Assembly (NCBI GenBank): GCA_013204605.1
Contig: JABMNI010000070.1
Span: 1 to 33,439 of the forward strand
Direction: 5' to 3'
DNA length: 33,439 nt
Source of the DNA: Ignavibacteria bacterium
GTDB lineage: Bacteria > Bacteroidota > Ignavibacteria > Kapaibacteriales > Kapaibacteriaceae
This document shows, piece after piece, positions 2-32,221 of the stretch (positions are counted from its first letter, which is position 1; each line of letters starts with the position of its first letter). Under the pieces are notes generated by a model, which searched no databases, was not told where the DNA came from, and worked only from the letters and a program-made list of their open reading frames with translations. The translations under genes were made by a program, and so were the position numbers.

Positions 2-3000
2 GCTCTTGGTCCGTTTACGGGTTTTGCCACTGAAACCGATTTCAACAATCCTGATAGAATACTATGGGGTTTTAACTGGGGAGGCACCAATAGTCGACTT
101 AACCGTTTACTAGGCTTCAACTATTTTCATGGTGGCGACAGCTTTTGTGATACTGCAAAGGGTGCGAATCTCTTACCAATGGATGCTGGAGGTATGCGGC
201 TTATTAGTACAGTTAATAATATTACATACGATAGAGAAGGTGACCAGATTTCTTGGGCTGATGGAGAATCTATGGAATGGCAACCCTGGTTGGAATGGGA
301 CACCACTTCTACTGGGGATTCGGCTATTTTAAACGTTAATGACACCACTGGTGGAGTGTTTGGATTTCGAACAATGAACTTCGGTGAGTTAAAAAGGGGA
401 ACCGACAGCCTTTACAGACTACATATTACTCGAACCATGCAGCAAGCAGACACTAATACCATCATTGCATTCGAAGCCCCTGAAAAGGACAACGCAATCA
501 TGAGGCAAACTAGGCTAAAAGACCTTTTTACAGGACCCGATGCAAAATATACTAAGTATGGTGACCAAAACACAAACCGAATGTTGTTGGCGGTGAATTT
601 GCGGCGTGATGGTGGGACGTATGCTAACGATTCAATACACGCCCCCGATGTGGTTCTGCGAATACGATTGCATTATGAACTGGGCGACTCGTCAACTTGG
701 AGCGCCGGCGACATAACGTTCAATAGAGTACCGGAACCAACGGACACGGCTGTGATGATTGTAAACAACGGGCTTGCACGAGGGTTGCGGCTCCGTGATT
801 CTATCGTGACTATACCCCGATTGGACTATTTTGACATCACGCGTGGTATGATTCCTGCGGGCAACGATGACGTTACTATTTATGCTGAATTCCTGTGCAA
901 CAGATTCATCAACCCAGACACAACTAAACTTTCGAATAATGGCGTTCAAAACAACCCACCGTTTCCAGATTTCATAGCGTCAGAACCGAATCAACCGAAT
1001 CGGATACGACACTTGAATATGTCTGTTGAATACATGGACGATCCAGACGCAGTAGGTGTTGAAGTTCGTTACTTGAGGTTAGAAACTCCTGCGGCTCGCG
1101 ATCTACTTTGGGGTGAACGTGATTCAGCAATAAACGTAGAAATCAACGCGTACCTTACTGCACTTCAAGAGTATAATAGACTTCACCATAGTCCAGATAA
1201 TACGATTATCAATATCAATACGGATTCATCCGCTCGGCTGCATAGAATATATGGCCGAGATGAAATTCATTTTCAGAACTGGCGTGCAATGCGGTACATG
1301 AACAGATTGTTACGAGAGAACAACAGCCTGCCAACTGGATTTGTTACAACTGAATGGAGTATACAAGAATATTGGAAGGCAAAACAGTGCCTGATGTTGC
1401 GTACGTTTTGGGAAGGCACAACGGTAAATTGGCATAACAAGAATGCTTCGCCCACTGTGAAGAAGGGCTATACAGGATTTGACTCCGAAGACTACGCTGG
1501 AATTGGAAGCGGCATTCTGCTCCATTCAAATTTCGAAACGATATCGTCGGTATTTTTTTCCGGCAGTTGGCATACCCCCAGTTCTTTACCAATAACTTCT
1601 GATTTAGAAGAGTTTATCTCGGTGTACGCAGTTGGTACACAGCCAACCTTGCAGTGGTATCTGGATCATGTGACAAAGAAAGAGTTGGGTTGTAGATATC
1701 TGTTCGACCCAGAAATTCATTGGACAGCCAATGTTTGGAATTATTCGCAGTCCTTCCCAAGTACAGATAGTTCTAATTATACTAGTGCACCCGGTGGACT
1801 TCCTCCTGTAGGTGAAAGATCAGTTGAATTTGCAAATGCGAGACCAAAAAGCGTTGGTGAGCTCAGGTTGCAATCTTGGCTTCCTATTGTGCTTGGAGCG
1901 AAGGGTCTGATTTACTATAATTCCAACACACACACATTCCCGAATGTAAATGATGTTGGCTATTGGAACGGCACGAAGACACTTTCGAAAGAAGGACGTG
2001 AATTTGGGTTTGCAAATGATGCCAGTGTGCCGTGGAACGTTTCGCCATTTAATGCCACTACACCTAGTGGCATCGATTCATCTTTTGAATCCGATGGAAT
2101 TGGCGGAGATTATGTAAAATCGGGTGACACGTCTAGATTTGATACCTATTGCCGAAATGGTATTGACTCAGTGGCCACAAAACTCAACGACGGTACGCCC
2201 AGTGATAGTATCTTCGTTGGAAGAAAAACCCAGCGACAAATTGCTCGAGAAGTTACATCAAGATTGATGCCGCATAGCGTGGAACTTGCCAACATTCACC
2301 TAGTAAGTTGGTTCAGCCGAGGCTATAGGGGTGCTCAAATGCAAGGCGATAGCTTGAGGTTTGATAGCCTGTTTAACGTGAGTAGGCTAGTAGTGTTCAA
2401 GCCCTACGAAGCTCCAATTACTATTACGACTCCGCCGTACATGGCACGGCAGGCTGAGAACAATGATTCTGTATTCTGTGATATAACCTTGTTTGCTCAT
2501 AAGACCAAACGTTACCCAGACACATTCTATGTGGGTGTTTGTAACCGAAGAACCGATACCCGCATAGCCCTTGATACTCCAACAACAGCGTATGATGAAT
2601 TTCGCACAACGGTGGATTCGTTTCCAGACCGGTTGTACACACAGCTAGGCAGTAGAAGTATTACAATACCGTTTTCGGTTACCAAGAATTATTCAGATTA
2701 TCGAATGCTCCGCGTAACCGAACTTTCAGCAGCAGAGACAGACACTACACGCTACGGATTGAAAACAGGAGTTGTCGATACCATTATCGGCCAAGACAAG
2801 GACTTACTCGTCACGTTGTTACCGGGTGAAGGGAAAATGTTTCGCGTAACCGTTATTGCGCCTGTACAAACCGAACCGATAGTTGGGTTTCTTGATCATA
2901 GTAATCAACGGAAACTCATTGCCTTTCCGGAGATTGCCACCGCAAGATCAAGAGTTTCGGACATTACTCCGGATTCATCTGTCGTCGAACATGAGATTCC

Positions 3001-5488
3001 AATGGTTGAAATGGGGTCTTGGACTCAATACATTCCTGACGACACCATGCGGTACCACATGGTGTATCACAGAGCCGTTGCAACAGATGGTAACAACCTG
3101 CACGTTTTTTACAGGCGAAGCTACCCTATGTTGTTTGACGGAACCGAGAACGATAGCGCAAATGTACCTCGGTCCATTCTTCGAAGCCCGAATGTGAAGT
3201 GGGAGCCGGAGATAGATCTTAATGTCAATATTCGAGTACGCACACCCATCGATTCGATTGGTTCGGCTGTAACGGGAATTAGTGGTTGCGCCTATCCATC
3301 GATTGTTGTGCGGCCGCAGCACGATGGAGACACCTCCACCTGGTCCGACGGTAACGCGCCTCCAGCCGGTAAGGACAATTATGTATATGTAACCTATACA
3401 TGCAAAGAATGCCCAAATTCTATATGGACGACAGATATTATTTATCGAAAGTTCCCCGCAGATCTGGATACGACCTTGCAAAGGGCATACATCAACAATA
3501 CGCTCAAAGGAGCTTGGGTAATTGACCGCTTCCCGATACCGCAGGCAAACATTCAAGTGCAATTGGACTCTGCGATGCACAAGTGGGGTACTCCAGTTAT
3601 CAACGCTAGTGCCAGTGGGAACTTTCTTGCTTGGTCGCACCCAACCTTGGGTATCCGTACCGTTCACTATGCCCCTACTCTTATTCAGCCAATGTTGTAT
3701 ACTAACGTCACGCAGGTAAAGGTAAGTGATGACCAAGACGTCGTTGCCACGCATCCTTCATTGAACACGTATTCGAGGCTGAATCTCGGTGAACGAGATG
3801 CTGGGTTAGTGTGGCAAGAGGGTCTTTCTTCAGAAACCGGAAATGCCATCTATTACACAAGATTGTTTTCAAACGGAGGTGTAGTTGATTATCGTCTTGC
3901 TGTAAACTTCGACGAGATCCAAGACTCCGTAAATGTGGCCCTTCCGAATGTTAAAGATGGCGCGGTGCTGCGTCTGACACAACTCACAGACCAAGTTAGC
4001 CACGACCCGGGTTTGGAAGTGTTCGGCAGAACTCATAGGTATCCAACAATCATGCGGCATCTTTCTGATTATGATATCGACAGCGCAAACAGCCGGTTTA
4101 TTATTGGACTAGTAAACACAAAAGCTGAACGCGTTTTTTGGGAGACAAAGGCCGTGTATGTGGAATATTCGGGAGAGCCACTGGTGGCGTATTACACCAC
4201 AGGTAAAAACGAGATAGCCCGAAAAGCGTTCGACATTGTTGACAAGGGTGCCCGATACCCTGATTCGATACCGGTAATATCAGGAAATGGCCCACATCTA
4301 CTCTGGTCCGAGAATCGCGGACTCTTCGGTCCAAACATAGCACAGGGCGAGTTGGTATCGGAGAATTACCCCGGAGTTGCAAATCCTACCGAATTTTGGT
4401 CGGAAGACTCTGTGAACGTACTAAACTTTTTCACCAGAACAGCAGCCCAGCCTGGAACAATATGGCAGCTTCCATTCGGGTATCACTACTACGGAAGCCT
4501 CGTACATCACGAAATGGAATACCTAGGGAAGCTTCAAGAGGTTAGTGCTTTAGGAACTTTCCCGCAACAGGCCGCACGCTTCTCTATGCATTTTCATCCG
4601 GGCTGGCAACGCAATAGAAGAATCCAAGAAGGCGATTCCCCACAGCGGGATACGGCTCTGCACTACACTCAGATTCCGTTCATCACCGCAAATGCACAGC
4701 ACTTCTACAAGAATTTTGATAACAACAATGTGGCTCTCATCGAGTACACCGGTTGGAGAGACCCCGAAGGTAGGAGCTTTAGAGTTAGTGGGTTCTTGCA
4801 GGATGGGTCGACCATGAAATTCACAGCGGCAAAAAAAGGAGAGGCTGCGGGAACAACTTTTTATACGGAGAAGAGCAGGAGTTTTTCAATAGAAGAGTTT
4901 GCTTTTTCCTCTCACGTGGATCCCGGCTTCACGGGAGCATCGTTGTCAGTCAAGCGAGCCTCGGATGGTATGGAAGTAGAAATTCAATTGGACAACTCTC
5001 AAAAAAACGGTCGCACAACGGATTACCTCATGAAGGCGATTTCTGCATCCGATGAGCAGTACATTTTTAAACTCTCAACAATTCGCGATGACATGCTTGA
5101 GATTCATGACCATCTAATGGAAGACCAAGGTGACGTGAAGTTCAAGCGCGAGTTTAGAGGCACTCTTGTGCGTGAGTTGATTTTAGACGGTAAGTCGATG
5201 CGGATTTTGAGCTCAGCGAATCCGGAACTATTGGTGTATCCAAATCCCGCCACCACCAGTATAACTATAAGCTGCGTGATACCATTCAAAGGTGGTTCAA
5301 AACAAATTCCAGAAGTTGAACTCTCACTACTTTCCCTGCAAGGCGAGCTGCTGATGAGAAGTACCGTTTCGAGTGTGTCAACCACCAACTTCGACGTCTC
5401 TAATCTGCCGCAAGGACTGTACTTGATAAAAGGCTCGTACTCACCTGCAATGGCACCTGTCGTGGCCACCTTTATCAAGCTGGACTAG
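2..5488 (+). CDS. Giant secreted T9SS cargo protein (5'-truncated by the window)
   Basis: The frame is open from the first bases, so the start lies upstream; 1828 residues are visible. An in-frame ATG at 179 is unlikely to be the start because coding continues above it without a stop. The last 86 residues (5228-5485) form a type-A T9SS sorting domain: a VYPNPATTS motif, a beta-rich stretch, then LPQGLYLIKG and a terminal FIKLD. The protein should therefore cross the outer membrane by the type IX system and be released or anchored. The stretch near 1859-1926 (SWLPIVLGAKGLIYY) resembles the late barrel strand of some glycoside-hydrolase-like TIM barrels. Nucleotides about 3250-4380 hold repeated Trp/Tyr-rich strands (AWSHP, LVWQEG, AIYYTRL, LLWSEN), suggesting a beta-propeller-like part. 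Both domain readings are inference; no enzymatic residues could be assigned. Secretion is well supported, function unknown. Confidence 0.85.
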   Translation, partial: ALGPFTGFATETDFNNPDRILWGFNWGGTNSRLNRLLGFNYFHGGDSFCDTAKGANLLPMDAGGMRLISTVNNITYDREGDQISWADGESMEWQPWLEWDTTSTGDSAILNVNDTTGGVFGFRTMNFGELKRGTDSLYRLHITRTMQQADTNTIIAFEAPEKDNAIMRQTRLKDLFTGPDAKYTKYGDQNTNRMLLAVNLRRDGGTYANDSIHAPDVVLRIRLHYELGDSSTWSAGDITFNRVPEPTDTAVMIVNNGLARGLRLRDSIVTIPRLDYFDITRGMIPAGNDDVTIYAEFLCNRFINPDTTKLSNNGVQNNPPFPDFIASEPNQPNRIRHLNMSVEYMDDPDAVGVEVRYLRLETPAARDLLWGERDSAINVEINAYLTALQEYNRLHHSPDNTIININTDSSARLHRIYGRDEIHFQNWRAMRYMNRLLRENNSLPTGFVTTEWSIQEYWKAKQCLMLRTFWEGTTVNWHNKNASPTVKKGYTGFDSEDYAGIGSGILLHSNFETISSVFFSGSWHTPSSLPITSDLEEFISVYAVGTQPTLQWYLDHVTKKELGCRYLFDPEIHWTANVWNYSQSFPSTDSSNYTSAPGGLPPVGERSVEFANARPKSVGELRLQSWLPIVLGAKGLIYYNSNTHTFPNVNDVGYWNGTKTLSKEGREFGFANDASVPWNVSPFNATTPSGIDSSFESDGIGGDYVKSGDTSRFDTYCRNGIDSVATKLNDGTPSDSIFVGRKTQRQIAREVTSRLMPHSVELANIHLVSWFSRGYRGAQMQGDSLRFDSLFNVSRLVVFKPYEAPITITTPPYMARQAENNDSVFCDITLFAHKTKRYPDTFYVGVCNRRTDTRIALDTPTTAYDEFRTTVDSFPDRLYTQLGSRSITIPFSVTKNYSDYRMLRVTELSAAETDTTRYGLKTGVVDTIIGQDKDLLVTLLPGEGKMFRVTVIAPVQTEPIVGFLDHSNQRKLIAFPEIATARSRVSDITPDSSVVEHEIPMVEMGSWTQYIPDDTMRYHMVYHRAVATDGNNLHVFYRRSYPMLFDGTENDSANVPRSILRSPNVKWEPEIDLNVNIRVRTPIDSIGSAVTGISGCAYPSIVVRPQHDGDTSTWSDGNAPPAGKDNYVYVTYTCKECPNSIWTTDIIYRKFPADLDTTLQRAYINNTLKGAWVIDRFPIPQANIQVQLDSAMHKWGTPVINASASGNFLAWSHPTLGIRTVHYAPTLIQPMLYTNVTQVKVSDDQDVVATHPSLNTYSRLNLGERDAGLVWQEGLSSETGNAIYYTRLFSNGGVVDYRLAVNFDEIQDSVNVALPNVKDGAVLRLTQLTDQVSHDPGLEVFGRTHRYPTIMRHLSDYDIDSANSRFIIGLVNTKAERVFWETKAVYVEYSGEPLVAYYTTGKNEIARKAFDIVDKGARYPDSIPVISGNGPHLLWSENRGLFGPNIAQGELVSENYPGVANPTEFWSEDSVNVLNFFTRTAAQPGTIWQLPFGYHYYGSLVHHEMEYLGKLQEVSALGTFPQQAARFSMHFHPGWQRNRRIQEGDSPQRDTALHYTQIPFITANAQHFYKNFDNNNVALIEYTGWRDPEGRSFRVSGFLQDGSTMKFTAAKKGEAAGTTFYTEKSRSFSIEEFAFSSHVDPGFTGASLSVKRASDGMEVEIQLDNSQKNGRTTDYLMKAISASDEQYIFKLSTIRDDMLEIHDHLMEDQGDVKFKREFRGTLVRELILDGKSMRILSSANPELLVYPNPATTSITISCVIPFKGGSKQIPEVELSLLSLQGELLMRSTVSSVSTTNFDVSNLPQGLYLIKGSYSPAMAPVVATFIKLD

Positions 5489-12208: not shown

Positions 12209-12736
12209 ATGAAATTAGTTTCGATCATGATTTGTTTTTTGGCAATCACGTTTGCCATACCTGCACAAGCAGGCGATGAGCCGGAGCAGTTGGTTTTACA
12301 AGAAACTGTACAGGCTTCATTTGGAAAAGCATGGGATGCAGTTAAGCAATGCATGACTAACTTTGGTTGTCCAAAACCACAGACCGAAAAGATTATTGAG
12401 CCCGACGATCCCACCGGATTCTACCGAGGAATATACGTTTCAGATTTTTGCATGATTGTTTTGGGCGAAGATTCCACTCGAGACAAAATGGAGGAGTATG
12501 GCGAGCTTCCTCGAGTAAGAGGCGGTATTTGGATAAGTGGCCGAATTCAATATAAAATTAATGTGAAGGAAGAGGGGATCCGCAATACCAAGATCACATT
12601 AAAAGCTGAGTTGAGTGGATTTGAAGAATTTATTACAAATCAAATATATTTTTGGGCCTCAAACGGGAAACTCGAGAAAGAAATGATGGCCAAAATTGTT
12701 GCCACGGTTCAACAACTCAACACGTCAGAAGATTGA
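12209..12736 (+). CDS. Small exported protein of unknown function
   Basis: A 175-residue protein with a clear Sec signal peptide: Lys3, a hydrophobic core (VSIMICFLAITFAIP) and a likely cleavage after AQA near residue 22. There is no lipobox Cys, so it is probably periplasmic. The mature part is mixed alpha/beta with three Cys (in QCMTNFGC and SDFCM). Its layout (FGKAWDAVKQCM, then a Gly-containing strand) is reminiscent of small envelope proteins in which an alpha-helix precedes a beta-sheet, but no family could be named. It starts 68 nt after smc behind an unusually good ribosome site (AAAGGAG, 12195-12201), so expression may be higher than that of its neighbours. Confidence 0.75.
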   Translation: MKLVSIMICFLAITFAIPAQAGDEPEQLVLQETVQASFGKAWDAVKQCMTNFGCPKPQTEKIIEPDDPTGFYRGIYVSDFCMIVLGEDSTRDKMEEYGELPRVRGGIWISGRIQYKINVKEEGIRNTKITLKAELSGFEEFITNQIYFWASNGKLEKEMMAKIVATVQQLNTSED

Positions 12737-15002: not shown

Positions 15003-15051
15003 AAAAACCCTGTCCACAGTTACCGATTTCGGTGAAATGGAGAGGGTTTTT
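15003..15051. terminator. Bidirectional terminator between rpsR and the Fe-S protein gene
   Basis: AAAAACCCT (15003-15011) pairs with AGGGTTTTT (15043-15051). A small inner stem (ACCG/CGGT around 15022-15033) sits in the loop. Both strands end in a T-run, so it can stop the plus-strand ribosomal cluster and the minus-strand gene. It overlaps the 3' end of the minus-strand coding region (stop at 15020-15022). Confidence 0.65.
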
Positions 15052-16033
15052 CTCTTCGTATAATGCTGTAATCATGGATTCCATTATCACCGATTGGATC
15101 TACAGCTTCCGGTACATTACCGAAAGGAACAACGGGGAAGGAACCAACGCTACCGTCCGGCAACGTAGCCCACTTTTTATGTTGGTAAGCACACACTGCT
15201 AGACAGGCAGAACAATAGTTATTCGTAGCAAAGTATGGGAAGCACTTTCCAGTGTCCACTACATATCTGTCATTTCCAATTGGGTCGGTCCCTGCCGCAG
15301 CAGAACGCTCATCCGGAATAGCATCTGCCGGACAATATATTCTACACGCTTGGCACTTATCGCAGAACTTGCCGATTCCGATATCAAGTGGAGTGTCAGA
15401 TTGAAATTTGAAATTCGTTAACAGACATCCAACGCGAAACAATGGGCCCATAGTAGGATGAATTATGCTCCCATGTCTTCCCAGTTCACCAAACCCCGCT
15501 TTTAAAGCTAAGGGTACATGCATAACCGAACTGTCGCCAATAGGGTGCTCAACCTTGCATTGAATTCCGTGGCTACGCAGAAACTCGGCTAGCTTCAAAA
15601 TCGCCTCGCCCAGATCGTGATATATCCGTAAACATTCTATTGCTGCACTCTCAGATGGAACGGTTGTAAATGATTCGTACCGCATTTTTTTTCCCAGTAC
15701 GATAGCATGTTTTTCATGTACCTCTCGTGAGTGATAAACGTCACCTTCGTCAATTTCGCATACGCCAACCTCGTCAACTCCAAAGCTCCGTGCAGCCCCC
15801 TTCAACCAATCGGAAGCCTGAATTTCGTTGTCGAAAGAGATCGTGTTTGGAGCTACCGGACCATCAAATCGCAAAGACTGCTCTTGAATTTTCTGCAACC
15901 ACGCGTCTGCTTCGGGGATGGAGATTGTGCGACCGCCAACTGAACGGTACCATAACTCCCAGTTAAAGGCGTTAGGTCCGTCGGCTGCTCCGGATATCAC
16001 TGGCAATTCTATGTAGTCGAAGTTATCTGTCAT
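15020..16033 (-). CDS. Cytosolic RdhA/QueG-like protein with two 4Fe-4S clusters
   Basis: A 337-residue protein without signal peptide, twin-arginine motif or membrane segment. Two ferredoxin-like Cys sets are visible: C224-x2-C227-x2-C230-x3-C234-P and C264-x9-C274-x2-C277-x3-C281. Upstream lies GFGELGRHGSIIHPTMGPLF (180-199), close to the GELGRHG segment of reductive dehalogenases; QueG (epoxyqueuosine reductase) shares the general arrangement. Those families use cobalamin plus two 4Fe-4S clusters to cut carbon-halogen or carbon-oxygen bonds. Short length and no Tat signal argue against a respiratory dehalogenase. Substrate unknown; cobalamin use is inference. Monocistronic, divergent from tRNA-Gln, with no clear promoter or ribosome site. 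Confidence 0.75.
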   Translation of the reverse strand: MTDNFDYIELPVISGAADGPNAFNWELWYRSVGGRTISIPEADAWLQKIQEQSLRFDGPVAPNTISFDNEIQASDWLKGAARSFGVDEVGVCEIDEGDVYHSREVHEKHAIVLGKKMRYESFTTVPSESAAIECLRIYHDLGEAILKLAEFLRSHGIQCKVEHPIGDSSVMHVPLALKAGFGELGRHGSIIHPTMGPLFRVGCLLTNFKFQSDTPLDIGIGKFCDKCQACRIYCPADAIPDERSAAAGTDPIGNDRYVVDTGKCFPYFATNNYCSACLAVCAYQHKKWATLPDGSVGSFPVVPFGNVPEAVDPIGDNGIHDYSIIRREKPSPFHRNR

Positions 16034-18127: not shown

Positions 18128-20071
18128 TTACAACGGTTCAATCCACCTGCTATCTTCTCGTATCAACGCAATGAGTTCCTCTACCGCGTTGGAAGTTGGA
18201 ACGTTTCGCTTCACTAACTCATGTCCACGATACAGCGAAATCTTTTCCGGACCCGATCCAACGTATCCGTAATCTGCGTCGGCCATTTCGCCAGGTCCAT
18301 TAACAATGCAACCCATAATACCAATCTTCAAACCCTTCAAATGATCCGTTTTGCTTCGTATGAGCGCGGTTGTCTCTTGCAAATCAAACAATGTTCTGCC
18401 GCACGATGGACAGCTTATGTATTCGGTTTTAGACATTCGCAATCGAGTAGCTTGAAGTACTCCAAACGACACTCGCACGAACGGCATCATAACACCATTT
18501 CCAAATCCATCTGCTAGTAATGCACCTAAATCTATACTCGAATGCAAAATGTCGGTTTCGTTTGTGCAAAGAATCACAGGTGGTGCGATCGCCACTCCTC
18601 GAGTCGTTTCTAAGAACTCTCGCATTACGTGGAAGTAGTCATTCGCATCCGCACCAACAAGAAAAACCGAAGTGGGGTCTTTCGCAATCAACGCAAAATC
18701 CAATGCATTTGCAGCACAAGCTTGAATTGAAACTACGTTCATCACAGGATGTTTTTCTTTTGCAGATTTGAATTCCTCTACCGTAAAATGGGGGACGCTG
18801 TAAAACTTATCTGCAAGCGTCTTCCACACTAGCACGTCCACCACCTGACGCGTTCCTGATGGTGCAGTGAATGGTAGGGGGCTTTCCCCGACATACAAGA
18901 ATTCGGCAGCTTGGTCGCGCATTGTCCATTTGTCCGTAATGGCATCATATTCATGACCGAATTCGGAGAGGTCGTCCATGTTCAGAATGGTACGACCGCT
19001 AACATCTGCAAACACGCGTGGGACATTGTCTCCGCCAATGGTTGCAACAGAGCAAGCGTGCACCCGGTCAATTTCTTGTCGGGCGTGTTGTCCTACGTAT
19101 TTATCAACTGACTCATCTGGGACGTCTTGATCAGCGTTTTGACTAACGTTTTGATTAGCGCTTTGACTAACGTTTTGATTAGCGTTTTGACTAACGTTTT
19201 GATTAGTGTTTTGTGTCTTCGTGTAATAACGATTTGCTAAGGCCTGGGCAACTGGAATTTCCGCTTCGGGTTCTTCGGTTAACGACACGCGTATGGTGTC
19301 GCCAATACCGTCCTCCAGCAACGTACCAATACCAATCGCACTCTTAATTCGCCCATCGTCGCCATCGCCGGCCTCCGTCACACCGAGATGAAGAGGATAG
19401 TTGCGTAATCGTTCTTCTCGTAACCGCTGAACCAATAAACGATACGCTTGAATCATCACCAATACATTGCTGCTTTTCATAGAAAGCACAATGTTAAAGT
19501 ATCCTTCATCTTCGGCAACCTTGATGAACTCAAGTGCCGACTCCACCATACCAAACGGAGTGTCGCCAAATCTGCTCATAATTCTGTCACTGAGCGATCC
19601 GTGGTTTGTACCTATCCTCATGGCTGTGCCATGTTCTTTGCAAATACGTACTAGAGGTGTGAAGCGGGTGCGAATTCTATCCAATTCGGCTGCATACTCA
19701 GAATCGGAATACTCAACAAAATTCCTCAGATTTTTGTCGGCATAATTGCCCGGATTAACACGAACCTTTTCAACCAACCTAGCGGCAATTTCAGCAGCAT
19801 TTGGGGTGAAGTGAATATCGGCAACCAGAGGCGTAGTATAGCCAGCATCACGAAGCCCCTTTCTAATCAATTCTAGATTTTTGGCTTCGCGAATAGATGG
19901 GGCAGTAATCCTAACAAGTTCACAGCCGGCCTCTATCATGCGAATGGATTGGGCAACTGTTGCCTGGGTGTCCATGGTATTGGTGGTAGTCATGGATTGT
20001 ACACGGATAGGGAAGGCCGACCCTATCTCCAAATCGCCTACATGAACGGTGTGCGTTGTTCTACGAAACAT
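18128..20071 (-). CDS. ispG: 4-hydroxy-3-methylbut-2-enyl-diphosphate synthase, long form
   Basis: Converts MEcPP to HMBPP in the methylerythritol phosphate route to isoprenoids, using a 4Fe-4S cluster. At 647 residues it is the three-domain type seen in Bacteroidota, Chlorobiota, Chlamydiae and plants, with an insert between the TIM barrel and the reductase domain. The barrel starts with the THTVHVGDLEIGS and RVQSMTTTNTMDTQATV segments. Cluster cysteines lie in SCPSCGRTLFD and MGCIVNGPGEMADADYGYVG near the C-terminus. Unusual: three copies of a 24-bp repeat (19134-19205) encode Asn/Gln-rich octapeptides (NQNVSQNA type) at the insert boundary. Last gene of the minus-strand run; starts 7 nt after the rhomboid stop with no Shine-Dalgarno sequence. 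Confidence 0.96.
   Translation of the reverse strand: MFRRTTHTVHVGDLEIGSAFPIRVQSMTTTNTMDTQATVAQSIRMIEAGCELVRITAPSIREAKNLELIRKGLRDAGYTTPLVADIHFTPNAAEIAARLVEKVRVNPGNYADKNLRNFVEYSDSEYAAELDRIRTRFTPLVRICKEHGTAMRIGTNHGSLSDRIMSRFGDTPFGMVESALEFIKVAEDEGYFNIVLSMKSSNVLVMIQAYRLLVQRLREERLRNYPLHLGVTEAGDGDDGRIKSAIGIGTLLEDGIGDTIRVSLTEEPEAEIPVAQALANRYYTKTQNTNQNVSQNANQNVSQSANQNVSQNADQDVPDESVDKYVGQHARQEIDRVHACSVATIGGDNVPRVFADVSGRTILNMDDLSEFGHEYDAITDKWTMRDQAAEFLYVGESPLPFTAPSGTRQVVDVLVWKTLADKFYSVPHFTVEEFKSAKEKHPVMNVVSIQACAANALDFALIAKDPTSVFLVGADANDYFHVMREFLETTRGVAIAPPVILCTNETDILHSSIDLGALLADGFGNGVMMPFVRVSFGVLQATRLRMSKTEYISCPSCGRTLFDLQETTALIRSKTDHLKGLKIGIMGCIVNGPGEMADADYGYVGSGPEKISLYRGHELVKRNVPTSNAVEELIALIREDSRWIEPL
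19134..19205. repeat. Three tandem 24-bp repeats inside ispG
   Basis: Copies 19134-19157, 19158-19181 and 19182-19205 are identical except one base (T versus C at the fourth position of the second copy). Each unit is itself two similar 12-bp halves. Decayed half-units flank both sides (about 19123-19133 and 19206-19213). The unit length of 24 keeps the reading frame, adding or removing eight residues per copy. Confidence 0.93.
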
Positions 20072-24532: not shown

Positions 24533-25132
24533 TCACTTTAAAACTCTCGAAGGATTCGACTCGACGAAGTCCTTCCACGTTGGTTTCTTTTTACGGTCAG
24601 CAATAATTGGGGTAGGGGGCTTTCCATTTACCGCATGGCATATTGCAACAGCTAGCGCATCCGTAGCGTCAAAAAATTTATGCGTCTCATCGATCTGCAA
24701 CAATGCTCTTACCATGTGCTGTACCTGCTCCTTATTGGCGGTTCCGCGACCAGTGACGCTTCGTTTCACCTGCATTGGTGTGTATTCCATCGGACTCAAG
24801 TTCGCTTCGGCACATGCAAGTACTGCAACGCCCCTTGCATGAGAAAGCTGGACGACAGAAACTACGTTTTTTGCGTAGAATACTTTCTCCAGTGCGCATT
24901 CATCTGGTTTCGTACGCGCAATCACAGCCTGCAAACGCTGGTGGATTTCCAAGAGTCGTTTAGGAAAATCTGCTTTGTATTTCTTGACTGCGATCGCACC
25001 GTATTCAACCAAGGTGAGATGCGACCCACGTACATCAATTACACCATATCCACACACAACGCTGCCGGGATCGATTCCCAAAACTCGAACTACTTTTGGG
25101 GTGTTTTTCTTCTTAGATATTGATTCAGACAT
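24533..25132 (-). CDS. ruvC: Holliday junction resolvase RuvC
   Basis: Cuts Holliday junctions with RuvAB (199 residues). RNase-H-like acidic catalytic residues are visible: Asp21 in GIDPGS, Glu82 in CALEKVFY, and Asp155/Asp158 in DATDALAVA. The N-terminus has an 11-residue extension and the C-terminus a basic tail beyond the E. coli length. The ATG shares its A with the yebC stop (TAATG), and the yebC-ruvC neighbourhood is widespread in bacteria. ruvA and ruvB are not in the window. Confidence 0.96.
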   Translation of the reverse strand: MSESISKKKNTPKVVRVLGIDPGSVVCGYGVIDVRGSHLTLVEYGAIAVKKYKADFPKRLLEIHQRLQAVIARTKPDECALEKVFYAKNVVSVVQLSHARGVAVLACAEANLSPMEYTPMQVKRSVTGRGTANKEQVQHMVRALLQIDETHKFFDATDALAVAICHAVNGKPPTPIIADRKKKPTWKDFVESNPSRVLK

Positions 25133-25875
25133 TACAAACTGTCCAGTACGTCATCATCGATGTCGGCATTGTTAAAAACAACTTGAACGTCGTCGTTATC
25201 CTCCAATACGTCAAGTAGTTTTACAAGCACCCGTGCATGCTCACTATCGGTAATCTGCACATATACGTTTGGTTCGTAAATAAATCTAGATTCCTTGACG
25301 GAAATTTCTTTCGATGCGAAAAAGTTTTCACATGAACCTAGGTTGTCGAAACTACAATGAACTACGGCGCCGGATTCGATGATTTTTAAATTATCTGCTC
25401 CGCTGTCCATCGACATTTCAAGCAGATAATCTTCACTCACGTCCGACTCAATAACAAGCTCTCCCTTGTGTGAAAAATTCCAAGCCACAGAGTTGGTCTC
25501 GCCAAGGTTCCCACCATATTTGGCAAAGGCAGCGCGCACATCCTTGATTGTTCTAATTCTATTGTCAGTCGCACCAATAACTATCAGCGCAACTCCGCCG
25601 GGGCCATAGCCTTCATACATTACATCCTCAAATTGCTGACCCTCAACTCCTCCACTACCTCTTTCAATGGCTCTCTTAATATTGTCCGACGGCATGCTGA
25701 GTGATCTAGCTGTGCGTATGGCCAAACGCAAACGCGCATTGGAATCCGGATCTGGACCACCAATGCGCGAAGCAACAATGATTTCTTTTGAAAGTTTTGT
25801 GAACATCTTACCGCGACGAAAGTCGACGGTAGATTTTCGATGTTTTATGTTAGCCCATTTGCTGTGCCCGGCCAT
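25132..25875 (-). CDS. yebC: YebC/PmpR/TACO1 family regulator
   Basis: A 247-residue protein of normal length. The start MAGHSKWANIKHRKSTVDF and the middle EGYGPGGVALIV are family signatures, followed by the acidic C-terminal domain. Members have been described as DNA-binding regulators and, more recently, as translation factors that help ribosomes through difficult sequences such as proline runs. It begins 7 nt after the secreted dehydrogenase gene and is coupled to ruvC. Confidence 0.96.
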   Translation of the reverse strand: MAGHSKWANIKHRKSTVDFRRGKMFTKLSKEIIVASRIGGPDPDSNARLRLAIRTARSLSMPSDNIKRAIERGSGGVEGQQFEDVMYEGYGPGGVALIVIGATDNRIRTIKDVRAAFAKYGGNLGETNSVAWNFSHKGELVIESDVSEDYLLEMSMDSGADNLKIIESGAVVHCSFDNLGSCENFFASKEISVKESRFIYEPNVYVQITDSEHARVLVKLLDVLEDNDDVQVVFNNADIDDDVLDSL

Positions 25876-25882
25876 GTCGCTC

Positions 25883-27337
25883 TTACTTGATTAACGTAGA
25901 GCGCAACTTACCATTCTGAGAAGAAACAACAATTAGATACGCACCGCTCGACAATGCAGCAGTGTTCAATACAGCACTGATTTCATATTGCTCATGGCGC
26001 TGAATTTCAATGCTTCTGCCCATCACGTCTAAAAGTTCCAACGTCCATTCCGACGGCAATGCCGCATTAAGTTGCAACGTTACTTGTTCTCTAGCTGGGT
26101 TAGGACCAAACGTAAAACCGTTCCCGGCAACAATGTCTTCTGATACAGCAAGAGGGGAGTGGGCCAAAGGATTCTCCAAAGCCAGAATTCTGGTATTTGG
26201 TTTATCAACGCCACTAGTTACAATCATATACACTCTTCCGTCGTAGCTCACGGCTACCGATCTGATTCTCTCTAGAAACGAATCGTTCGTAAATGGAATC
26301 AAGTGGTCGGCATCCAATGCCATGGTGTTCTCACTCGATTGGGAAGGATCTGAATTAGAAATTTTTCCGCTGCCGTCCAACGCGGCAACCATTAACCCAT
26401 TGCCGTACAATGTTCCAATCAAAAGCGAATTAGTCCACTCAGGAATCGCCTTTGATGAATAAAAAGCTGCTTGCGAAGGAGCTTGAAAGTACGTAGATAA
26501 TGGGCATTGTATCGCATCCGTTCCCGTCTGGCAATAACCAGAAATTTTTCTCCAACCATAGTCTTTACCCGGTTCGATGTTATTGATTTCATCGTTCGCG
26601 ACTGGTCCCGCTTCAACAGCGTAAATCGCACCTGGGCGCGTTGCATGTGTTGCGGGAAGTTGTGTTATACCAGATACGTTTCTGTGCCCGTAGCTATATA
26701 TGTACCCCGCCAACGCAGTAGGATTATCCCACTTGTAAAACGGATTGTCCAGCGCAGCATTTCCATCTAAGGTCATTCTAATCAGCTTACCATTTAAAGA
26801 TGACAGCTCAGTTGGAGCCGGCGTATCAAATGAACCTACCGAAACTAAAATCGTATTATCTGAAAGAACCGTAATGGTTTGACCCAAATTGTGCGGCACG
26901 TTGTTTACAACCAAAAGAACTTTCGGATCAACCAACTGCCGTCCATTGTACCTATATCTAGCAACGGTTAATCTGTCATCCGCTGAGGTATATGTTACAA
27001 ACACATATGGCGTTCCATTGTCGATATCCGGATGTACAGCTATTCCAAAGAGTCCACCGGCAATAGTAGCATCATCGGAGTTTACAGTAAGCGGTAGGTC
27101 TAACACAACGTCTGACCAACCAAGCCCGGGGTGCACCCGAACAACCCTACCATTGTTGTGATCAGTACACCACAAATAACCGCTCGGATCTACGGTTAAC
27201 TGCCAAGCATTTGCAATCACTGCAGGCACGGTTCTCACATTTACAACCGTTCCTTTACTCAGTTGAATTGTTTCTTGAGCACTTATCGCAATTGTACCAA
27301 GCAGTAGTATTGTAACTACCATTCGTAACAAACGCAT
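25883..27337 (-). CDS. Secreted PQQ-type sugar dehydrogenase with T9SS sorting domain
   Basis: Signal peptide about 1-20 (RMVVTILLLGTIAISA). The main domain (about 35-390) is a six-bladed propeller of the glucose/sorbosone dehydrogenase family. Visible motifs: GGLFGIAVHPD (94-104), PHNLGQTIT (148-156; His149 is at the place of the usual catalytic His, where relatives have HNGG), LNGKLIRMTLDG (181-192), YSYGHRN (214-220) and DEINNIEPGKDYGW. Residues 408-484 are a T9SS sorting domain starting FTFGPNPARE and ending in a basic LRSTLIK. It should act outside the cell, oxidising sugars or related alcohols if PQQ is bound; the substrate is unknown and HNLG is an altered motif. First gene of the long minus-strand run, with AGAGGA 7 nt before the ATG. 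Confidence 0.88.
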   Translation of the reverse strand: MRLLRMVVTILLLGTIAISAQETIQLSKGTVVNVRTVPAVIANAWQLTVDPSGYLWCTDHNNGRVVRVHPGLGWSDVVLDLPLTVNSDDATIAGGLFGIAVHPDIDNGTPYVFVTYTSADDRLTVARYRYNGRQLVDPKVLLVVNNVPHNLGQTITVLSDNTILVSVGSFDTPAPTELSSLNGKLIRMTLDGNAALDNPFYKWDNPTALAGYIYSYGHRNVSGITQLPATHATRPGAIYAVEAGPVANDEINNIEPGKDYGWRKISGYCQTGTDAIQCPLSTYFQAPSQAAFYSSKAIPEWTNSLLIGTLYGNGLMVAALDGSGKISNSDPSQSSENTMALDADHLIPFTNDSFLERIRSVAVSYDGRVYMIVTSGVDKPNTRILALENPLAHSPLAVSEDIVAGNGFTFGPNPAREQVTLQLNAALPSEWTLELLDVMGRSIEIQRHEQYEISAVLNTAALSSGAYLIVVSSQNGKLRSTLIK

Positions 27338-27528: not shown

Positions 27529-30462
27529 TCACTTTTTTGTGGATAAAAGGTCGATCGTCCGACGGTAAACACTTGATGTGGTAAGTATTTGCGAATTTCC
27601 GACCAAGACGAATTGCTTCTTAGCCCGGGTTATTGCTACGTTGAGTTTTCTATCTACAGTTTGACCGCCAGAAGTGGTTTCCGACCGTATCGACTCGAAT
27701 TCTGTTTGGTTGCTAACGGCAGTGCCAAATATTATAACATCTCTTTGAGACCCTTGAAATCGCTCAACGGTGTCGATTGTTATCTCGTCAGATAAGTGAA
27801 CGGGGAGTAATTCACTAATCAAATTATTCTGGGCTCGGAACGGGGTTATAACACCTAACGTGCTGCCAATTCTTTCAAAATCTAAAAACTGTACCAATGA
27901 CAGAATGAGGTTCACAATAACAGCTGCCTCATCCGCTTGTTGATCTTTTTCCGACGACAAAATTGGAATGAAGAATGCGCGAGATTGAATAACACTCCAC
28001 CACGGCGCTGACGTCGAATCTTGTTGCCACGGAAGAACAGTTTTCAGTTTGCCATTATATGCTAACGTCGATGCCACATGCATGATTTCATAATGCATTC
28101 TGCCTTGCTCTATCAGGGTTCCTATAGCATGGCCCCAACCATTTTTCTTGCACAACGCCCGCATGCGTTCAAAATACGATACAGCTGTATTCAGGTATCC
28201 CAGGTTGTGCAGAATTTCAGAATTAATTTGAAGTGCGGTGGGATCTTGTGTAACAACAGCAGGTAGCTGGCATTCATCACCAATCAATATCCATCGTTTT
28301 ACCCTGGGAAGTATTCCCGCAAGATGAGGTTCAAGAACCTGCGATGCTTCATCTATGATTAGCGTTGTAAAGTCACCAAATTCCCAAACCTCTGGCGATG
28401 ATAGTACACTTTGTACGGTTCCTACGATACAGTGTGCCGAGTTTATTCTCGCGGCTAAAGCTTCGGTGGAAAGGTGATGCGCAAGCACGGGAATCGAACG
28501 ATCGGCCGAACCTTCGCTTGCACCGTATTTGCTGCCATGGCGTAGGAAGTCAATGAACTGCGTGCTAGTTTCCAACGCGTCACAAATTTCATTGGCCGCC
28601 CTGTTTGTATAGGTTAAAACCAAGATGCGCTCTGCACTGTTCTGTACTAATTGGGCTACAATGTTTTTTAGGATGATCTGCGTTTTTCCGGTGCCCGGCG
28701 GACCCTGAATTAAAAAGTAGTCTGTACAATTAACCGCCCGTTCTATAATGTCCTTCTGGTGTTCGGTTATCTCTGGGTCTTCCAGATATAGATGTGCTGG
28801 CGTAACAGGTTTTCCTGGTGCATCAACTCCTATTATAATATTCTGGCGTGCAATTGGCGCTTGTAAAAAAGTAAAAACAGAGGCGTATAATTGTTTCAAA
28901 CCTGAGTCTGAAATATCCTGTTCAACAATCCATTTGTTATGTAACAATTCTTCGTGACTGAACTGTTTGTTTCGCAAAGAAACTAAAACTCGATTTGCAC
29001 GAACAGACTTTACCGACCCTTTTAAAATCTGATTTGCACACGGACTTGATGTTCCGTTTTCCGTAATCGCGTGAACAACAACATGATCCCCAATGCGAAT
29101 CGATGAGCTACCTATTTGTGCATCACGCTCAAACTGAATGTGCATTTGCTGAAAGTCGGACAAATCTGCATTAACAGTCAAGTCCGTTATCGCTTGCTTC
29201 TGATCGCGCTTTTCTTGGATTGTACTCCTCCACAACGATGCTTGCAATTCCGATGCACTAACTCTCGCCGTAGCAACAAAACTCATCCAAATCTGAGCAA
29301 TAGTGCGGTGAATATTCGCCGCAGAATTATAGGCATTCGAAAAGGTTGAAATAAATTGCGCCGCATACCCAGTATGATTATACTGTGCAGTGTCGGCTAT
29401 TTTCAAAACACCAAAATTTCGCATTTGCATAGCGCGCTCATAAAGCACTATCCCATTTCTCACCAATAAAATTCGCTGAATATAATCAGCCTCATTTGCA
29501 ACTATTCTGAATGGCTTTTCAGAAGCAGTCGAATACCAAACCTCGGCAGATTTCCTCTGGCCCGGATGAATCGCATCGTACAGTAACGCATACGCACATA
29601 CCTGAGCGGCATGGTTCGACCGAATAGAATTTCTATGAATCACACCTTTCTCTGAATAACTCAGGGAGGGGGCTTTCCCAGACTTCATTTCAATCAGCCG
29701 AACACCATCGGGTTCTTGAACAACAATGTCGAATCTTCCCTGCAGACCAAACACATTAGAAATTAACTGAGGTTCGACTGAGATTTTATCAGCTCCGAAC
29801 AATGTAATTATGCTTCTATATTTTGAAACCGATTCTCGAATTTCTTGAACGATGGAGTTAATCACCGACTCTCCCTCAGACTTAAACAGCGCCGCTAGTG
29901 CAAGTGGTCTACTTTGAACTACATTCTCAACAACCGATTCATCATCTAATTCAGGCAGTCCAACCAAAACATCAAAAACAGAATTCAACATTATACCGCG
30001 GACCATAGCAACACTATTCGTCCTCTTCTCAAACCGTTTAATGAAACCAATCATCGGTTCATCTCCCGTAGCATAAATACATTCCGCAATCTCTGTAACG
30101 TCGTACAATTTCTCCGGCTCCAGCACTAAAAATCGAGTACCAATTGAATCATCATGTGAGCCGATTGAATGACCACTTGAGTTGATTGACTCGCCAGTAG
30201 AACCGCATGAGTCAGAATTCAATCCGTTCGAATCGCTACGTGAGCTGAGCGTTTCGTTAGATGAGCTGACCGTTTCGTTTGCTGTGAGGTTAGGTTGGTG
30301 GTGAGTGATAACGGCAACGCTCATGCCGATGGACGTGTTGGGTAAGCCCCTTAACCAAATTGCAGGAAAGGGGACAATTTGGCGTTCACCTGTTTTGCTT
30401 TGAATTTCAATTTCCCCCTCGTTTGCGCGGACGCCAACTAATGTGCCCCTAAGCACTGCCAT
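27529..30462 (-). CDS. Dna2-like nuclease-helicase (PD-(D/E)XK plus superfamily 1 helicase)
   Basis: The ATG at 30462 is chosen because it follows the recJ stop by 1 nt; a frame open to 30543 would overlap recJ. This gives 977 residues. Residues about 150-300 resemble a Cas4/AddB/Dna2-type nuclease: RGIMLN (155-160), GRFDIVV (D245), IEMKSGK (E258, K260) and QVCAY (287-291). The C-terminal half is a UPF1/Dna2-like helicase: Walker A GPPGTGKTQ (about 585), motif II IIDEASQ (about 705), and motif VI VAITRAKKQF (about 957). The three clustered Cys that close the Fe-S cluster in Dna2 are absent, and the usual His of the first nuclease motif is Asn160. A Ser/Asn-rich repeat (61-109) interrupts the N-terminal region. 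Role in DNA end processing is inferred. Confidence 0.85.
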   Translation of the reverse strand: MAVLRGTLVGVRANEGEIEIQSKTGERQIVPFPAIWLRGLPNTSIGMSVAVITHHQPNLTANETVSSSNETLSSRSDSNGLNSDSCGSTGESINSSGHSIGSHDDSIGTRFLVLEPEKLYDVTEIAECIYATGDEPMIGFIKRFEKRTNSVAMVRGIMLNSVFDVLVGLPELDDESVVENVVQSRPLALAALFKSEGESVINSIVQEIRESVSKYRSIITLFGADKISVEPQLISNVFGLQGRFDIVVQEPDGVRLIEMKSGKAPSLSYSEKGVIHRNSIRSNHAAQVCAYALLYDAIHPGQRKSAEVWYSTASEKPFRIVANEADYIQRILLVRNGIVLYERAMQMRNFGVLKIADTAQYNHTGYAAQFISTFSNAYNSAANIHRTIAQIWMSFVATARVSASELQASLWRSTIQEKRDQKQAITDLTVNADLSDFQQMHIQFERDAQIGSSSIRIGDHVVVHAITENGTSSPCANQILKGSVKSVRANRVLVSLRNKQFSHEELLHNKWIVEQDISDSGLKQLYASVFTFLQAPIARQNIIIGVDAPGKPVTPAHLYLEDPEITEHQKDIIERAVNCTDYFLIQGPPGTGKTQIILKNIVAQLVQNSAERILVLTYTNRAANEICDALETSTQFIDFLRHGSKYGASEGSADRSIPVLAHHLSTEALAARINSAHCIVGTVQSVLSSPEVWEFGDFTTLIIDEASQVLEPHLAGILPRVKRWILIGDECQLPAVVTQDPTALQINSEILHNLGYLNTAVSYFERMRALCKKNGWGHAIGTLIEQGRMHYEIMHVASTLAYNGKLKTVLPWQQDSTSAPWWSVIQSRAFFIPILSSEKDQQADEAAVIVNLILSLVQFLDFERIGSTLGVITPFRAQNNLISELLPVHLSDEITIDTVERFQGSQRDVIIFGTAVSNQTEFESIRSETTSGGQTVDRKLNVAITRAKKQFVLVGNSQILTTSSVYRRTIDLLSTKK
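30136..30282. repeat. Seven degenerate 21-bp repeats inside the helicase gene
   Basis: Residues 61-109 read as seven 7-residue units: ANETVSS, SNETLSS, RSDSNGL, NSDSCGS, TGESINS, SGHSIGS, HDDSIGT. At DNA level two copies remain nearly identical (30241-30258 and 30262-30279, 17 of 18 bases, period 21). The rest have decayed. Confidence 0.75.
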
Positions 30463-30463
30463 G

Positions 30464-32161
30464 TTATTCAGGTTTGACGTCCTTAATGCGGATTTGAGGC
30501 GATGACTTCCCATTAAAAAGATTTTCTTCGATAGTGTATACAACGGAAAACGGTTTACCGTGGCTACACTCGGCTATTTTGTGACCCAGATTGAAACCAA
30601 TTGCATCGATTGCAAAGTTATTCTGAAGAGCACGAAACTTTAGGTGGTTGTTGCCAACAACTTTTACACCGTTTGCCGAAACTACATTTCTAGTTACAAA
30701 CACCGGCCGCAAATTGCCTTGACCAAACGGAGCAAATTTTGCCAGGTACTCTAAAAATTTTGGAGAGAGTTCAGTGAGCTGCAACTCTGCATCAACTTGA
30801 ATTTCAGGTGTCAACATATCGTCTGACATATGCAGTTTGGCAATTTCATTAAACCTTCGGCGGAGTTCGGGAACGTTCTCGATTTTAAGCGACAGGCCTG
30901 CAGCGTGCTTATGTCCACCGAATTCAATAATCAAATCCTCGCACTGCTTAAGCGCATTGTGAATATCAAAGTCCCGCACAGATCTGGCCGAACCTTTTGC
31001 CACGCCGTTCACAGTTGTCATGAGCACGGTAGGCACTCGATATTTCTCCACCAATCGCGAAGCTACAATTCCAATTACGCCGGCGTGCCACTCGCCCTGA
31101 TGCAAGATCAGAGATCTATTTGTAGTGTCGGCCAGAAATTTCTCAGCGCCAATGGAAGCGCTCTCGAAAGTTTCCTCATCAATTACACGTCGTTTTCGAT
31201 TGTCGTGTTCAAGTTCTTGAGCGATATTAAATGCTTTCCACTCATCTTCTTGAATCATCATTTCAACAGCTCGCGATGCATCGCCCAAACGTCCGGCAGC
31301 ATTTATTCGGGGGGCTAAACCAAAAACAACGCTTGCATTATTCAACTGGCCAACCGTCAGTCCGGCACAGTCAATCAGCCCCTTCAAACCTGGCCTAGGA
31401 GAACGGTTTAATTTCTGCAATCCGAAATAACTGAAAATGCGATTTTCACCCTCAATGGGCGCAATGTCTGCGGCCGAGGCGATGGCAACGAAATCTAGGT
31501 AGTCACTGCCACTCTTACCAATATCTAGACGCTCGCAAACGGCCTGAATCAACTTATAAGCCACGCCACAGGCGGCAAGATGCTTAAATGGGTATTGACA
31601 TCCAGGTTTAATTGGGTCAAGAATAGCAACAGCTTCGGGCAACTCTTCGGCTGCCTGATGATGGTCACAGATTATCACATCAATGCCGTAACTGGCGGCC
31701 AGAGAAACAGCTTTAACGGCTGTAATTCCAACGTCCACAGTAATAATTAGCTTAGCACCCGCCTCTTTAGCTAAGTTTACAGAGCCGGCAGTAAAGCCAA
31801 ACCCTTCATCGAGTCTGTTGGGAATATGGTATTGGGCAACTCCGCCAACACTTTTAATAAAGTGTAGCATCATAGCCGTACTCGTCGTGCCATCCACGTC
31901 ATAATCGCCGTGGACCCACATCATTTCCTTAGCTTCCAGTGCATCTACAATTCGATCAACTGCCAACTTCATCCCGTCCATCAACCAAGGAGAATGGATC
32001 TCAGATTTACTGGGCTTGAAAAAATCGTTGACAGCGTCTAAGGTTTGCAGGCCACGCCCTACTAAAACCCTAGCAATAGATGATGGAACGCTTAATTTAT
32101 CTGTAATTTCATGTACGGCTACTTCATCAATACTTTCCCGGTAAATCCACCGGTAATTCAA
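30464..32161 (-). CDS. recJ: Single-stranded-DNA exonuclease RecJ
   Basis: 5'-3' ssDNA exonuclease of the DHH family, for recombination and mismatch repair. A frame is open to 32257, but the start is placed at TTG 32161. AGGA lies 5 nt before it, the product then begins MNYRWIYRES like other RecJ N-termini, and a promoter sits in the 32191-32221 stretch that the longer form would use as coding. This gives 565 residues, the family norm. Catalytic motifs: HGDYDVDG (84-91), CDHHQ (DHH, 166-168), and DHHA1 GGHKHAAGLS (about 413-422). Followed after 1 nt by the Dna2-like gene. Confidence 0.93.
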   Translation of the reverse strand: MNYRWIYRESIDEVAVHEITDKLSVPSSIARVLVGRGLQTLDAVNDFFKPSKSEIHSPWLMDGMKLAVDRIVDALEAKEMMWVHGDYDVDGTTSTAMMLHFIKSVGGVAQYHIPNRLDEGFGFTAGSVNLAKEAGAKLIITVDVGITAVKAVSLAASYGIDVIICDHHQAAEELPEAVAILDPIKPGCQYPFKHLAACGVAYKLIQAVCERLDIGKSGSDYLDFVAIASAADIAPIEGENRIFSYFGLQKLNRSPRPGLKGLIDCAGLTVGQLNNASVVFGLAPRINAAGRLGDASRAVEMMIQEDEWKAFNIAQELEHDNRKRRVIDEETFESASIGAEKFLADTTNRSLILHQGEWHAGVIGIVASRLVEKYRVPTVLMTTVNGVAKGSARSVRDFDIHNALKQCEDLIIEFGGHKHAAGLSLKIENVPELRRRFNEIAKLHMSDDMLTPEIQVDAELQLTELSPKFLEYLAKFAPFGQGNLRPVFVTRNVVSANGVKVVGNNHLKFRALQNNFAIDAIGFNLGHKIAECSHGKPFSVVYTIEENLFNGKSSPQIRIKDVKPE

Positions 32162-32190: not shown

Positions 32191-32221
32191 CAAAAATACA
32201 ATTCAGTTTGGCAACTGTCAA
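32191..32221 (-). promoter_or_regulatory. Promoter of recJ
   Basis: On the minus strand: TTG (32221-32219), 20 nt, then TATTTTTG (32198-32191). The predicted start of transcription is near 32184, about 20 nt before the TTG start codon at 32161. Confidence 0.6.

Follow-up and report, generated by a model that had tools for sequence, protein, structure and literature searches.

The window analysed here, a stretch of 33,439 nucleotides (nt) from an Ignavibacteria bacterium (contig JABMNI010000070.1), carries the gene of the exonuclease RecJ next to a gene, hereafter dna2L, whose product resembles DNA2 along almost all of its sequence, an identity well established by profile comparison and by the predicted fold. 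From its sequence, the protein seems to be a bacterial relative of DNA2, a DNA-repair enzyme of eukaryotes, that has no iron-sulphur (Fe-S) cluster but retains the cutting residues. The locus represents more than a chance observation: dna2L has homologues in 58 of the 60 genomes compared from its order, and linkage to recJ was found in 36 of the 54 genomes in which it could be assessed. A putative role of the pair in DNA end resection is plausible. For the two proteins we infer a partnership in which this iron-free member of the DNA2 superfamily would, together with RecJ, most likely perform accessory 5′-end processing at gaps, at 5′ flaps and at forks that have stalled or reversed, a role that we consider reasonably probable.

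Both genes, and every feature mapped in or around them, lie on the reverse strand. The recJ gene (30464..32161) reads from a TTG start at 32161 to a TAA stop at 30466-30464 and encodes a 5′-3′ single-strand DNA exonuclease of 565 amino acids (aa), which matches TIGR00644 with 525.7 bits (cutoff 396.9; E 1e-157), contains the DHH, DHHA1 and RecJ_OB domains, and carries the DHH motifs HGDYDVDG (at residue 84) and CDHH (at 165). As stated in the initial annotation of this DNA, the distance to the next gene is 1 nt: a single base (C) separates the recJ stop from the ATG of dna2L (27529..30462; 977 aa), which starts at 30462 and stops at 27529. Pfam and NCBIfam models identify dna2L as a nuclease-helicase, with PDDEXK_1 in the N-terminal half (28.8 bits, cutoff 22) and the AAA_11/AAA_12 superfamily 1 (SF1) helicase domains in the C-terminal half; TIGR00644, Pfam and the DNA2 matches given below therefore agree with the annotated arrangement of RecJ beside a Dna2-like PD-(D/E)XK/SF1 protein. 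A single promoter for both genes is no more than plausible. One match to TTG-N20-TAnnTTTG, the Bacteroidota-type promoter consensus, lies upstream of recJ (32191..32221) and is a weakly supported promoter candidate: when the window was shuffled 100 times, 44 of the shuffled sequences also contained at least one such match. Sigma-70-type matches in the window are as frequent as chance predicts (14, with 14.5 expected).

When a profile of 16 members of the order was compared with the sequences of the Protein Data Bank (PDB), mouse DNA2 was the best match of the whole dna2L protein (2.9e-77), and the next matches were far weaker (SMUBP-2 at 2.3e-45; SMUBP-2, SEN1 and UPF1 at about 1e-45 to 1e-44). 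The structure predicted from a 46-sequence alignment had a predicted local distance difference test score (pLDDT) of 84.4 and a predicted template-modelling (TM) score of 0.87, residues 1-110 being mostly below 50. A Foldseek search with this model returned three DNA2 entries on top (best E 4.9e-44, TM 0.70/0.66; fold match 5ean), and VIA-align aligned DNA2 over 844 residues, from residue 44 to 977 of the model (Z 25.3, root-mean-square deviation 4.0), of which the part before about residue 110 is of low confidence. The nuclease domain (residues 105-365; 29368..30150), of the RecB/Dna2 type of PD-(D/E)XK folds and devoid of the Fe-S cysteines, was modelled with pLDDT 87.3. Searched alone with Foldseek, it matched, in this order, DNA2 (1.4e-7), ACE1 (Cas4 family), a putative exonuclease, MGME1, Cas4 and AddAB, and a nuclease-only profile of 17 rows, three of them Fe-S-bearing Chloroflexota rows, had DNA2 as its sole PDB match below E 0.01 (1.3e-13). 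The SF1B helicase core (approx. residues 565-977; 27532..28770) was recognized by AAA_11/AAA_12, and its motif residues (GPPGTGKT with K593, D704-E705, R788, Q903 and R946) are identical in 145/145 homologues. Because the profile and Foldseek searches rank DNA2 first, the predicted fold is that of a PD-(D/E)XK nuclease within a DNA2 architecture, i.e. an N-terminal RecB-family nuclease fused to a C-terminal SF1B helicase, which defines the DNA2 superfamily. The PD-(D/E)XK core expected at residues 110-330 appears in the whole-protein model and in that of the nuclease domain. The homologues differ in length, being mostly 880-980 aa in the family of the window (f1) and mostly about 1100 aa in the other families, with the difference located N-terminal of the nuclease domain.

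The active site was examined in an alignment of 145 homologues of at least 600 aa, 55 from the order and 90 others; the latter include two rows (L089 and L166) that fall inside the order on the tree described below, and one genome that is present twice (L109 = L181). His164, Asp278 and Glu299 are the metal ligands of mouse DNA2, in a site that also has Lys301 and Gln314 (PMC4716839). The Asp, Glu, Lys and Gln of this site are all found in dna2L, as D245 (29728..29730; matching Asp278), E258 and K260 of E258-M259-K260 (29683..29691; matching Glu299 and Lys301) and Q287 of the motif IV Q287-x3-Y291 (29590..29604). D, E, K, Q and Y were each present in all homologues with a residue there, 53/53 from the order (its two other rows are gapped) and 90/90 others, so the residues originally named are correctly numbered in the 977-aa protein and conserved in its relatives. 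The position of His164, in a nuclease-profile alignment with DNA2, is occupied by N160 (29983..29985); the window's dna2L thus lacks the metal-ligand His of the G-x3-H motif that is typical of DNA2 proper and of the class of Bad, a Geobacillus enzyme. Position 160 is N in 49 of the 55 order rows (G in 3, gap in 3) and N in 55, G in 27, S in 5 and H in 3 of the 90 others, the three His rows being all of the Ktedonobacterales (L163, L165 and L167).

In DNA2 and AddB the ends of the nuclease domain are stapled together by an Fe-S cluster (PMC4716839), and Bad also carries such a cluster (PMC7430649). No Cys triplet follows the nuclease core in the window's dna2L, and the four-cysteine pattern of the iron-staple class is absent from it. 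Among the 144 homologues having this region, a triplet after the R-N motif was found in four: the three Ktedonobacterales rows, labelled Chloroflexota (C-x2-C-x5-C), and L168 of the Thermomicrobiaceae (C-x2-C-x7-C); the first Fe-S cysteine was judged by eye. None of the homologues labelled Bacteroidota, Ignavibacteria or Cloacimonadota has the triplet. Damage to this particular copy was ruled out as a cause, since the whole Bacteroidota/Cloacimonadota branch is without the cysteines and keeps the catalytic residues. The initial description of a variant or weakened nuclease was accordingly right about the absent cysteines and the Asn in place of His, which are, however, no local defect but the state of that branch (mostly Asn, otherwise Gly or Ser). 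With the Ktedonobacterales rows as an outgroup, one loss of the cluster would be the simplest reading of the sequences; the tree itself infers no root.

Two further sites were considered and rejected. C128 (30079-30081), part of an I-A-E-C motif kept in 83 of the 90 non-order homologues and in 33 of the 55 order rows, is not a left-over Fe-S cysteine, as it lies off the Fe-S position, five residues after T123, the cluster cysteine of the Ktedonobacterales and DNA2 being eight residues from the corresponding T. R335-N336 was discarded as a replacement of the staple, because DNA2 has R-N there too.

Compared with known systems, dna2L shares with mouse DNA2 (5EAN/5EAW/5EAX; PMC4716839) the domain order, the 844-residue fold, the Asp/Glu/Lys/Gln site with the R-N that follows it, and the SF1B helicase; it differs in having no Fe-S cysteine pattern, Asn for His164, only about 20% identity, and linkage to recJ. 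Bad, known here by description, is likewise a bacterial RecB-type nuclease fused to an SF1B helicase, an endonuclease of single-stranded DNA that prefers 5′ overhangs and has a 5′→3′ motor (PMC7430649). An Fe-S cluster and an additional central domain are described for Bad, which occurs sporadically and adjoins a methyltransferase gene in Geobacilli (PMC7430649), whereas dna2L, devoid of the Fe-S pattern, is found in 58 of the 60 order genomes, beside recJ, yebC and ruvC. The three Ktedonobacterales proteins are of the same architecture and represent the nearest relatives found with the iron-cluster pattern; in contrast to dna2L they keep G-x3-H and C...C-x2-C-x5-C. AddAB has a RecB-type nuclease as well, and AddB, too, is iron-stapled (PMC7430649). 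It differs in being built of separate subunits and in its UvrD-type helicase, and this genome encodes relatives of each subunit at other places.

The distribution of the pair was determined in the 60 genomes of the order (the window's own included), 57 of which have recJ. In family f1 recJ lies upstream of dna2L, on the same strand, in 21/21 assessable genomes (in G002 with one gene between them), and in the remaining families the linkage was observed in 5/6 (f2), 5/6 (f3), 0/2 (f4), 3/3 (f5), 1/1 (f6), 0/6 (f7), 0/3 (f8), 1/5 (f9) and 0/1 (f10). Six genomes were left out of this count, two without a dna2L match (G026, G053) and four in which dna2L is cut by a contig end (G014, G018, G025, G058). 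Linked genomes include G002 and also G030 (f9; 782 bases with a small open reading frame (ORF) between the genes), while G036 (744 upstream bases), G038 (444 upstream bases) and L183 (a 6.4-kb contig) were scored as unlinked on these stretches. The conservation of the pair in relatives, on which the original proposal depended, was thus found throughout the assessable genomes of the family and in two thirds of those of the order. Of 247 genomes drawn from the phylum, 32 carry dna2L, 20 from the order and 12 scattered outside it; the phylum searches scored the first three candidates per genome, and absences may therefore be over-counted. Among 80 named loci the pair occurs in two, L089 and L166. 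Since the linkage is concentrated in the order and lacking in the outside carriers that were read, the pair is a trait of the order, strongest in the window's family. On a tree of 81 helicase-core rows, 45 of the 46 order rows form one group with L089 and L166 (Shimodaira-Hasegawa-like approximate likelihood ratio test 87, below the starred level of 95); L082 falls outside the order group, and the order label needs four changes. This fits, but does not prove, a mostly vertical descent of dna2L within the order.

The common gene order in the window's family is rsgA (divergent), recJ, dna2L, sometimes a GSDH-like gene, yebC, ruvC, GAPDH and PGK. In the window, yebC (25132..25875; PF01709, PF20772) and ruvC, encoding the Holliday-junction resolvase (24533..25132; PF02075 8e-50), belong to clusters that recur in 16 and 23, respectively, of the 59 loci compared (window included); that of ruvC occurs in 18/24 loci of f1 and in 5/6 of f3, and in those f3 loci ruvC directly follows dna2L. 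As yebC and ruvC are located downstream of the pair in most family loci, the gene order places dna2L among recombination genes. The gene between dna2L and yebC encodes a secreted glucose/sorbosone-dehydrogenase-like protein (25883..27337; GSDH, Por_Secre_tail; cluster in 9/59 loci), which is not thought to be part of the module. Outside the order, no neighbour cluster is common to more than five of the 80 named loci.

Elsewhere in the window, the protein of 1769 aa encoded at 179-5488 has a type IX secretion sorting tail as its sole Pfam match at 1e-5, and two ORFs of 337 and 175 aa (15020-16033 and 12209-12736) have none at this threshold. The IspG (GcpE) protein of 647 aa encoded at 18128-20071 probably contains a long insert, because its match falls in two stretches.

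The genome encodes further recombination proteins, among them an AddA-like protein of 1181 aa with helicase and nuclease motifs (1.2e-82 and 2.5e-82 with addA models, short of the curated cutoffs). An AddB-like protein of 942 aa (PDDEXK_1 6.3e-31; addB model 7.9e-12 and TIGR03623, both below cutoff) contains the His, D, E/D-x-K and Q motifs, together with four cysteines spaced as in the Fe-S pattern. The two genes are located on separate contigs (L172, L173), and the end of the AddB-like gene overlaps the start of the next ORF, by the look of its sequence a Lon-type ATPase. RecQ and RecF are both present above cutoff, and the RecD2 model gave weak matches only, in dna2L and in a UvrD-like protein. 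Because AddA-like and AddB-like proteins are encoded in the same genome, the module is not a stand-in for a missing AddAB, and the earlier proposal that it acts in place of RecBCD or AddAB is not supported (no dedicated RecC or RecD model was used in the searches). As AddAB-like proteins are available for double-strand ends, the substrates of the module would most likely be gaps, 5′ flaps and forks, either stalled or reversed. The DNA2-like enzyme would thread onto a free single-stranded 5′ end, its nuclease would clip the threaded strand, and its SF1B motor would run 5′→3′, opening the duplex; RecJ, made together with it, would trim the remaining short 5′ ends and leave a 3′ single strand for RecA via the loaders of the RecF pathway, with RecQ and RuvC presumably working in the same pathway. 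In the RecF pathway it is RecJ that resects 5′ ends, and the enzyme binds the tail of SSB (PMC4846377).

Several observations weigh against accessory processing by such a partnership. The AddAB-like genes already offer end resection in this genome. The linkage is absent in f4, f7, f8 and f10 and in 4/5 of f9, recJ is missing from the stretch read in 12/12 carriers of dna2L outside the order, and 78 of the 80 named loci (at least four of them cut close upstream) lack the pair; RecJ is therefore not an obligate partner of dna2L. Within f1 the median identity to the window's protein is 37.6% for dna2L versus 67.8% for recJ (19 proteins each), a gap in divergence that would be odd for a tight complex. 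N160 could slow the nuclease, because in DNA2 the His at this place (His164) binds the metal (PMC4716839). Moreover, VIA-align gave higher Z scores than for DNA2 to single-domain UPF1-type chains, with Ighmbp2 (Z 35.3), SETX, coronavirus nsp13, UPF1 and UvrD ranking above it, each aligned over at most 556 residues versus 844.

The initial annotation went further and saw in RecJ and the DNA2-like protein a replacement of RecBCD/AddAB as the main machine for resecting double-strand ends. The class of enzyme fits, RecJ being a 5′-end nuclease (PMC4846377), and DNA2, like AddAB, has been implicated in double-strand break resection (PMC7430649); the AddA-like and AddB-like proteins nevertheless make this very improbable, as do the PDDEXK_1 matches better than 1e-20, stronger than that of dna2L itself, in 52/60 genomes of the order (not identified individually). 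It is also unlikely that dna2L is a helicase-nuclease directed against phages and stands in a core locus by chance, on the model of Bad, for which a place in a restriction system has been suggested. Its likeness to defence helicases (PADLOC MkoA 2.2e-49, NCBIfam PLuB 1.4e-51), its rapid divergence, the scatter of 12 of the 32 carriers in the phylum draw and the methyltransferase gene next to Bad (PMC7430649) would suit a defence function, but they have to be set against the near-universal presence of dna2L in the order, its mostly vertical descent, its housekeeping neighbourhood, and the lack of any neighbour shared by more than five of the named loci. Furthermore, the MkoA match is helicase-side (best stretch 673-963; 166.6 bits, model without a stated cutoff), PLuB reaches 175 bits against a curated cutoff of 999, and a general IGHMBP2-family helicase model scores equally (9e-52).

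A degenerate nuclease domain, structural only, would leave a 5′→3′ helicase beside RecJ. The change of the metal-ligand His to Asn (or Gly/Ser) and the lost Fe-S cysteines point in this direction, and Bad becomes labile once its Fe-S cysteines are changed to Ala (PMC7430649). We think there is little chance of this, given that D, E, K, Q and Y are found in every homologue with a letter there, that the nuclease model is a confident one, and that RecB and lambda exonuclease cut DNA without a cluster (PMC4716839).

No SbcD match was obtained in the window's genome, while 13 of 14 control genomes gave one. Above cutoff, SbcD occurs in 20 of the 60 genomes; it is absent from f1 (0/23), f2, f3 and f10 as sampled and present in f4-f7 and in part of f8 and f9, with partial matches below cutoff in some f1 and f2 genomes. 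Among the 54 assessable genomes, 32 of the 36 with linked recJ and dna2L have no SbcD above cutoff, compared with 6 of the 18 unlinked ones (Fisher p 5e-5), an association conceived after the data had been seen; some linked genomes (G005, G032 and G039) carry partial SbcD-like matches below cutoff. A relatedness-aware test, made with 52 of the 54 genomes, yielded two supported pairs and had no power. A DNA2 lineage that lost the iron-sulphur staple might have become a core genome-maintenance enzyme of the order, forming with RecJ a dedicated 5′-strand machine that has taken over work usual for SbcCD, which we regard as possible, though rather doubtful.

Bacterial DNA2-like enzymes are known from Firmicutes, some Proteobacteria, and Mycobacteria and their relatives (PMC7430649); the word stem "bacteroid" is absent from the main text of that paper, and in the open-licence literature no title or abstract opening among the matches listed names a Bacteroidota DNA2-like protein or a pairing with recJ. 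As far as our searches show, three things are new here: the iron-free Asn branch, its occurrence in almost every genome sampled from a single order, and its link with recJ. The physiological role of bacterial DNA2-like proteins has been stated to be unknown (PMC7430649). The order described here provides a large, mostly vertical dna2L branch in a DNA-repair neighbourhood, and because a candidate partner, RecJ, can be named, the role of dna2L is directly testable. The branch also amounts to a natural experiment, in which a presumably DNA-threading RecB-type nuclease does without the iron cluster that staples DNA2 and AddB.

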